From the NCBI GenBank assembly GCA_003024175.1, contig MDYQ01000012.1, positions 161,013 through 225,012 on the forward strand: a stretch of DNA of 64,000 nucleotides, written 5' to 3'. Positions 59,773 to 61,940 of this stretch are shown piece by piece (positions within the stretch are counted from its first letter, which is position 1; the number at the start of each line of letters is the position of its first letter). A program made the translations under genes and the position numbers. The notes under the pieces are model-generated. The model was given only the letters and a program-made list of their open reading frames with translations. It was not told where the DNA came from and did no database searches. Source of the DNA: Planoprotostelium fungivorum. Its lineage: Eukaryota; Evosea; Variosea; Cavosteliida; Cavosteliaceae.

Positions 59773-59864
59773 GTTCGTGTGGTGATGTTGAATAAATGTT
59801 CCATTGATTCGTTTATTCGGATTTTTAGTTCAGAGGAAGCAAATTTCGACAGCACCACATCGAG

Positions 59865-60320
59865 ATGGTCTACATCTCGAATACAGGTGAGAGCTCTGCA
59901 ATTATATTTCCTTTATTCACATTCTCATGTTCTGTCAGGGTCGGTCCACGAGACCGAACCATGGAGTTTATCTTCGATACCCAAAATCTTTTGGGGAGTA
60001 TTGAACTCCATAACGTTCTTGTGAGTTAGATCAACCACATCATTTTGTCTTGTTGATCTAATATTGACCCGATAAATAGCGTACAGACTCTTATCAGTCC
60101 CGACATGCCACAACCAAAGGGAGGAAACCGCGCTCTGACGAGTGGTGGTAACAAAGCCTCCGGCCATCGTCTTGGTATGTAATCATCGTTCGCCCTCCAA
60201 AGCCGACAGACGACAGGAGGAAACAATGTAAATAGAGACTCGAGTGGCGGTGTAGGAAGCAACGTGAAGGGAATGTCTAATCTGCCACAATGCGGTCCAA
60301 CTGGTGGATGAGCTCGGTAA
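59865..60320 (+). CDS. SELENOK: Selenoprotein K, with in-frame TGA selenocysteine
   Basis: ER membrane protein; in animals it works with DHHC6 and p97 in ERAD and calcium signalling. Exons: 59865-59886, 59939-60020, 60080-60174, 60217-60320. MVYISNTG (family MVYISNG) is followed by EPWSLSSIPKIFWGVLNSIT (family PWRLS.I...FWG) with one membrane helix ending FFVQTLI, then a Gly/Ser/Asn-rich, basic tail. The last codons are GGT GGA TGA GCT CGG TAA, that is G-G-U-A-R, matching the GGU.R end of SelK. The TGA is 60309-60311; the real stop TAA is 60318-60320. About 98 residues. A normal stop at TGA would remove the redox residue. A stem-loop and a SECIS-like fold follow. Confidence 0.88.
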
Positions 60321-60347
60321 ACGCTCACAGCAAAGAGCTGTGGGCGT
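60321..60347 (+). promoter_or_regulatory. Stem-loop just after the SELENOK TGA
   Basis: ACGCTCACAGC (60321-60331) pairs with GCTGTGGGCGT (60337-60347) over 11 bp with one G-U, loop AAAGA. It starts 10 nt after the selenocysteine TGA, the position of selenocysteine redefinition elements that raise UGA read-through in some mRNAs. This role is inferred from position and pairing only. Confidence 0.6.
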
Positions 60348-60373
60348 CGCAGCCTTAGGTGTGTTCTGCTCAT

Positions 60374-60440
60374 CTTCTTTCATCTGAAGAGTTTTCAGCA
60401 TGGAAACAATGAGATGCTGAGGCTGCGAGCCAAGAGGAAG
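60374..60440 (+). promoter_or_regulatory. SECIS-like element in SELENOK 3' UTR
   Basis: Helix I is CTTCTTT (60374-60380) with AGAGGAAG (60433-60440). The non-Watson-Crick core has TGA at 60385-60387 on the 5' side and GA at 60427-60428 on the 3' side. Helix II is GAGTTTTCAGCAT (60389-60401) with ATGCTGAGGCTGC (60414-60426), nine contiguous pairs at the top and two mismatches below. The apical loop GGAAACAATGAG has the AA motif at 60404-60406. The layout fits a eukaryotic SECIS. Folded by eye. Confidence 0.65.
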
Positions 60441-60623
60441 GAGTCTTTATTTCTTATGAAATTTGTGAAAGACACGGCTTCAATTGCACTGGCAACGGCT
60501 TTGTCATGATGTGAATCCTTCTTCTTGAATAAATCGATTGAATTGGATGACTCTTGCAGCCAACTTACAAGCGAACTAAAGGATCTGCATCGTCGTCTGT
60601 TACGATGAGATGAGACGATCATC

Positions 60624-61121: not shown

Positions 61122-61940
61122 ATGAGCACACAAGGAAACCTTCGCATCGGCGACACCGCACCTGACTTCACAGCTGAATCATCTGCGGGAGAGTTCAAGC
61201 TCTACGATTACTTGGGCGATCACTGGGGAGTCTTTTTCTCTCACCCTGCCGACTTCACACCAGGTAAGATCCGAAAGATCCTGTTCCAACAGATCGTTCC
61301 ATTTTCGATTCTGATTGTACTTGACAGTGTGCACCACTGAATTGGGCGCCGTGGCGAAATTACTTCCAGAATTCGAGAAGAGAAACACAAAGGTCTTCGC
61401 CCTCTCTGTAGATCCTCTCGATAAACACCACAAGTGGATCGATGACATCAATGAGACACAGAACACCAAGGTCACTTACCCTATCATTGCGGGTGAGAAC
61501 ATTCGCACGTCCTCCTCGGTTCTCATGTTCCATCAGATCACGACCGAAAAGTAGCCACACTCTACGGAATGCTGGATCCCACCAACCTTCAGAAGACGAC
61601 TGGACTCCCCGTTACTGTCCGATCCGTCTTCATCATCGATCCAAAGAGAGCGGTCCGTCTCATTTTGACCTACCCCGCCTCTTGCGGAAGAAACTTTGAT
61701 GAAGTGCTTCGCACCCTGGATTCTCTCCAGACAACAGACAAACACAAGGTGGCCACACCTGCCAACTGGAACAAGGGAGATGATCTAATCGTGCTGGCCA
61801 GTCTGAACAATGTGAGTCACGATCGATGTGAACAGATGGCTCACGCTCGACAGGATCAAGCAAGGGAAGCCTTTGGAGATTTCAAGGAGGTCAGACCTTA
61901 CCTCAGATACGTCAAGAACGACCAGCTGAAGGGCCAATAA
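61122..61940 (+). CDS. PRDX6: 1-Cys peroxiredoxin (PRDX6 type)
   Basis: Thiol peroxidase that reduces hydrogen peroxide and lipid peroxides. MSTQGNLRIGDTAPDFTAES (ATG 61122) leads to GVFFSHPADFTPVCTTELG, split by an intron (GTAAGATCC...TTGACAG) just before VCTTE, which holds the peroxidatic Cys. The resolving Cys of 2-Cys enzymes is absent. VFALSVDPLDKHHKWIDDI, YPIIAD, a second short intron and GMLDPTNLQ complete the thioredoxin fold. SVFIIDPKRAVRLILTYPAS and ATPANWNKGDDLIVLASL are typical of the PRDX6 C-terminal extension. The end YLRYVKNDQLKGQ stops at TAA 61938-61940. Three introns. Confidence 0.95.

Follow-up and report, generated by a model that had tools for sequence, protein, structure and literature searches.

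A selenoprotein K gene with an in-frame TGA and a candidate type II SECIS element in Planoprotostelium fungivorum

Overview

The window analysed here, a 64-kb stretch of DNA taken as a whole, very probably contains the selenoprotein K (SelK) gene of a selenocysteine (Sec)-using eukaryote, in which the UGA at 60309 of a four-exon mRNA is decoded as Sec by way of tRNA-Sec, eEFSec and a type II SECIS at 60431-60527. In the proposed mechanism, the four exons would be spliced into the SelK mRNA, the SECIS in its 3′ UTR would recruit eEFSec carrying tRNA-Sec to decode the UGA, and the product would be a 100-residue SelK-family protein with a hydrophobic segment near the N terminus, a basic tail rich in glycine, and Sec as residue 98. 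The structure of the gene, its family match, the presence of the Sec genes and the SECIS-like fold were all computed. Coordinates at this locus refer to the window, and all SelK features lie on its + strand.

The SelK gene and its product

The SelK coding sequence is divided among four exons. Exon 1 (59865-59886) opens with the ATG start and ends at the donor gtgagagctc; exon 2 (59939-60020), in which the hydrophobic segment (residues 24-42) begins, lies between the acceptor ctgtcag and the donor gtgagttaga; exon 3 (60080-60174) is bounded by the acceptor aaatag and the donor gtatgtaatc; and exon 4 (60217-60320) follows the acceptor gacgacag and runs through an in-frame TGA to the TAA stop. 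The introns are of the GT-AG type (52, 59, and 42 nt), and splicing joins the exons in frame into 100 residues that read MVYISNTGSVHETEPWSLSSIPKIFWGVLNSITFFVQTLISPDMPQPKGGNRALTSGGNKASGHRLGGNNVNRDSSGGVGSNVKGMSNLPQCGPTGG-U-AR-stop when the TGA is taken as U. For exon 4, a start at 60213 breaks the frame and the AG at 60208-60209 leads to the same frame as 60213; 60217 was used. The original prediction, that four exons join in frame into a SelK homologue ending G-G-TGA-A-R-stop, is upheld by these introns and by the family match described below (60.6 bits) as well as by the position of the TGA (60309-60311), which is codon 98 of 100 and the third codon before the TAA (60318-60320), with Ala and Arg between them. 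A standard gene caller would presumably end the protein at the TGA and drop three residues, Sec included, and it is at this point of expected error that the annotation is corrected.

Pfam scoring was carried out on the spliced protein, with Cys put for Sec, in place of a six-frame search of the genome. The SelK_SelG family (PF10961) was the single Pfam family found, and its match, covering residues 2-78 on profile positions 1-82 of 86, is far beyond chance (60.6 bits, E 2.3e-16, cut-off 23.3); the Sec-bearing tail lies outside it. When the genome was searched with this model in six frames, neither SelK nor the controls were recovered, which for SelK is probably explained by exons of just 22 to 104 nt. 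A DNA search of the assembly with 59820-60620 returned only its own locus, and Rfam gave at this locus two weak snoRNA matches alone, both below their cut-offs.

Hydropathy peaks at residues 24-42 (mean 1.32), the right place for the SelK membrane segment and of modest height, and this segment near the N terminus may span the membrane; by analogy with SelK elsewhere, the protein would be located in the ER membrane. The tail is glycine-rich and basic, with 14 Gly among 57 residues and six Arg or Lys against two Asp or Glu. In its MVYIS start, the FWG within the hydrophobic segment, the glycine-rich basic tail and the near-C-terminal Sec, the protein resembles what we take to be the layout of human SelK. 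It differs from the human protein in having a Cys six residues before the Sec (C92 and U98), and we know of no Cys equivalent to C92 in the human SelK tail. A bond between Cys174 and Sec188 has been proposed for SelS, in the part of the account available (PMC3628699), and a similar Cys92-Sec98 bond is, by analogy, possible in the tail of SelK here.

SelK is described as widespread in the accessible portion of a published survey (PMC2375036), and against this known context the SelK described here appears as an ordinary, well-supported member of its family. Judged on its sequence, the small membrane protein gene at 59865-60320 is SelK, a well-formed representative of that widespread family.

Selenocysteine machinery

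The 36.9-Mb assembly (471 contigs) was searched for five Sec genes, those for tRNA-Sec, PSTK, SecS, SPS2 and eEFSec, and all five were found, PSTK and eEFSec in part. It had been claimed from the SelK gene that the organism keeps the Sec machinery, and the genome bears this out for tRNA-Sec, SecS, SPS2 and eEFSec and also for PSTK. The tRNA-Sec on contig C103 scores 73.3 bits (gathering score 47) and has the anticodon TCA and a 6-bp D stem. SecS is found as three pieces on C17 and three on C38, with matches down to E 1.2e-40. Single exons of PSTK on C93 and C425 are weak (E 0.002 to 0.02), and the joined pieces match the eukaryotic PSTK model at 71.1 bits (E 9.5e-20, whole-protein cut-off 382).

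In the selB search of the genome, EF-1alpha and other GTPases came out on top and the eEFSec exon, on C450, was eighth (39.6 bits), being recognised on reading. Compared with solved structures, this one exon scored 69.1 bits against eEFSec, 41.5 against archaeal SelB and at most 32 against the others shown (eRF3 32), and for the joined partial piece the top-ranking NCBIfam model is selB (103.4 bits, whole-protein cut-off 242), followed by EF-Tu (89.7). Both PSTK and eEFSec fall below the NCBIfam whole-protein cut-offs because the pieces are partial.

Several of these loci are doubled. The SecS loci on C17 and C38 are identical over 3447 bases, the PSTK loci on C93 and C425 share 2735 of 3120 positions, and glutathione peroxidase (GPx) loci on C112 and C35 share 2281 of 3219 (the latter two pairs compared side by side without gaps). 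From their sequences, the doubled SecS, PSTK and GPx contigs may be either unmerged haplotypes or duplications.

Other selenoprotein genes

Three further genes carry an in-frame TGA at a Sec site. SPS2, on C74, reads MTDYTRLKG-U-GCKVPQ across a 42-nt intron, and a piece of 25 residues, Cys replacing Sec, has a selD match (E 2.4e-4); SelW, on C439, has the sequence EYCTA-U-GYQSKY spanning a 43-nt intron and, with Cys for Sec, scores 75.6 bits on TIGR02174; and SelM, on C341, reads SCNR-U-RLNALPKVKDF and, treated likewise, scores 65.8 bits on Sep15_SelM. One more selenoproteome is thereby added, of no fewer than four proteins (SelK, SelW, SelM, and SPS2). Together with the machinery, the in-frame TGA codons of SelW, SPS2 and SelM leave Sec decoding in this organism well supported, and we infer that Sec is inserted at codon 98 of SelK.

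A genome-wide use of TGA as a sense codon for Trp or Cys, without any role for Sec, would also place TGA inside reading frames, and codes of this kind exist in some protists according to the available part of one source (PMC12153298). Among the few genes examined, under the standard code, the open frame of EF-1alpha runs for 453 codons with five TGG and that of an EF-2 piece for 823 codons with eight TGG, and these long frames with TGG for Trp argue that TGA is no general sense codon; the presence of a tRNA-Sec with anticodon TCA likewise speaks against such a code, which we regard as scarcely conceivable here. A second EF-1alpha frame, on C62, has 390 codons and is without an internal stretch of the 453-codon frame on C134.

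GPx genes on C112 and C43 have Cys at the active site, and the GPx match on C35 scores the same as that on C112. A Sep15-like piece on the minus strand of C179 (38618-38707) gives 21 bits, or 29.8 with its neighbours (23.6 alone, cut-off 26), and reads C-K-W-K, with Trp (TGG) at the expected Sec (TGA) site; the corresponding site of Sep15 is, we assume, C-G-U-K. No SECIS was found for this piece on its own strand by either of the grammars described below. To judge from the sequence, the gene may have lost Sec by the change of one base, or the Trp may be a sequence error. On C439 (1345-1640), an N is flanked on both sides by slightly differing repeats of a stretch of the SelW gene, which is probably a scaffolding fault.

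Dictyostelium discoideum likewise possesses SelK and SPS2, whereas SelW and SelM are outside the five selenoproteins listed for it and its Sep15 is a selenoprotein, as far as the available portion of the survey extends (PMC2375036). That same portion records that no band was obtained for Dictyostelium SelK by 75Se labelling (PMC2375036).

The SECIS candidate of SelK

A scan of the 800 nt after each stop yielded two SECIS candidates at SelK, a fold near the stop and one farther downstream. In the minimum-energy fold of 60321-60540 the complete farther candidate occupies 60431-60527, where a helix I of 12 bp (60431-60442 with 60516-60527) lies below an internal loop that is large on its 5′ side and encloses a core of type II (60465-60510). 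The core, which begins 153 nt past the TGA and lies beyond the coordinates of the original prediction, contains the quartet UGAN/NGAN (GUGAA from 60465 and UGAU from 60507), helix II, an AA in the apical loop 12 nt on from the quartet, and an apical mini-stem, UUGC/GCAA. Immediately after helix I, and abutting it, is an AATAAA (60528-60533), a putative poly(A) signal and one of 17 on the + strand of the window.

The elements of SelK, SPS2 and SelW are alike: each has RUGAA followed after 11-12 nt by an AA, a loop region of 17 nt that includes a mini-stem, and the GA side of the quartet. The SelM element differs from them in that it escapes the strict grammar; its AUGAA...AA begins about 35 nt past the stop, a looser scan (CC allowed) gave −11.5 and −10.0 with AGAG as the 3′ side, and by eye a UGAG two bases before the AGAG could serve as an alternative 3′ side. 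All four genes share the in-frame TGA at the Sec site, a SECIS-like element in the 3′ UTR and an AATAAA at most 45 nt after it (17 nt from the core in SelK, 20 in SPS2, 43 in SelW, and 5 in SelM), and these hexamers are presumably poly(A) signals in use.

With 35-50 nt of flank, the SelK core has a mean pairing probability of 0.60, as it has in the fold of 60321-60540; shortening the flank to 20 nt removes helix I, lowers the probability to 0.20 and gives a best fold without the core. This fall suggests that the SelK core relies on helix I. The cores of SPS2 and SelW reach 0.93-0.94 at each flank length, and the SelK helix II, with a C-U mismatch, is weaker (−10.9) than those of SPS2 (−15.8) and SelW (−17.1).

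Since the grammars were drawn up after the elements had been seen, the counts that they give describe rarity and are no blind test: on both strands of the window the loose grammar has 59 matches, among which the SelK element alone reaches −10 kcal/mol or lower, and the strict grammar has a single match, the SelK element itself, while across loci the strict grammar is present in three of the four selenoprotein UTRs (SelM being missed) and in none of six control loci (one strand each). In 10,000 dinucleotide shuffles of 60312-60540 the core energy was matched 28 times and that of the core plus helix I three times; rougher shuffles, in which dinucleotides are not exactly kept, reached the core energy in 10 of 3000.

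The Rfam model SECIS_1 did not list the SelK element even at E 10, short of its gathering score, and nothing in the genome rose above its cut-off (scores were obtained for 133 of 731 first-look candidates). The SelW element received 22.0 bits from it (cut-off 35) and SPS2 was left unlisted, and because SPS2 and SelW are missed too, with nothing over the cut-off genome-wide, the Rfam result is better read as a limit of the curated model than as bearing on a defining feature of a SECIS, although it still counts as a negative. The sole SECIS_1 match in the genome, on C316 (20.1 bits), has no recognised selenoprotein before it on a brief look. Because MAFFT gapped alignments of the SECIS cores wrongly, a further model was built on the SPS2 element only; it detects SPS2, scores SelK and SelW at chance level, and is too specific to help. 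Given these misses, the support for the SelK element comes from geometry, energy and position rather than from a sequence model. As a one-genome set of SECIS candidates missed by the Rfam model at its cut-off, the elements offer a test of how general SECIS models are.

The SECIS of SelK had been placed earlier in a fold 63 nt past the TGA (about 60374-60440), so that the gene would be a selenoprotein gene with a different element. This near fold (CUGAA...AA...CGAG) contains UGAA, AA and CGAG, its UGAA/CGAG recurs in the SelW element, and it has a local energy of −10.6 kcal/mol with a helix I duplex of −11.6. Its AA, however, lies at a distance of 16 nt from the quartet, where the cores of SPS2, SelW and SelK have 11-12 nt, it is without the type II mini-stem, and in the fold of 60321-60540 its strands are taken up by stronger helices, leaving it a pairing probability of 0.0004 against 0.60 for the farther core. 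We consider it very unlikely that the near fold is the SECIS. The earlier identification of SelK with a TGA at the Sec site therefore stands, while its SECIS appears to have been misplaced: by the modelled folds the type II element at 60431-60527 is the better candidate, and it would be expected to bind SBP2.

It can also be asked whether translation of SelK simply terminates at the TGA, giving a protein that ends at Gly97, after a loss of Sec decoding in this gene. That Rfam finds no SECIS at SelK would agree with such a loss, as would the Sep15-like gene of the same genome, which seems to have lost its Sec. Against it, the TGA is followed by Ala-Arg-stop, similar to SelK endings elsewhere (the family tail ends, as we understand it, in much the same way after Sec), downstream there is a SECIS candidate of the geometry seen in other elements of this genome, and all five Sec genes sought were found; termination at Gly97 is accordingly judged extremely improbable, and decoding of the TGA as Sec is preferred.

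The accessible part of the Dictyostelium survey describes all detected SECIS of that organism as type II, their cores being preceded by UGUA and followed by a U-U mismatch (PMC2375036); neither of these two features was seen by eye here.

Hairpins upstream of the SECIS candidate

Between the TGA and the SECIS candidate, an 11-bp hairpin at 60321-60347 starts 9 nt after the TGA and folds with −19.5 kcal/mol (z −3.5; one of 200 shuffles folds as well); stems of at least 10 bp with loops of 3-8 number 39 among those listed in the window, many of them overlapping. SELENON and SELENOT are known to carry redefinition elements downstream of their UGA-Sec codons, according to the part of the source available (PMC8704476), and it is only a suggestion, based on the predicted fold, that the hairpin is a possible Sec redefinition element. 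A fuller scheme, in which Sec insertion in SelK would depend on two cis signals (a SECIS flush with the poly(A) signal and a redefinition hairpin) and the tail would carry a Sec98-Cys92 selenylsulfide, is doubtful as a whole.

A z of −3.4 was obtained for the fold of 60296-60480. The part of the 3′ UTR that separates the first hairpin from the SECIS candidate is taken up by another long hairpin (CGCAGCC.../...GGCUGCG, 60348-60428). Some 0.6 kb beyond the AATAAA of SelK, on the same strand, a peroxiredoxin-like gene begins (window 61122-61800), by eye of the Prx6 type.
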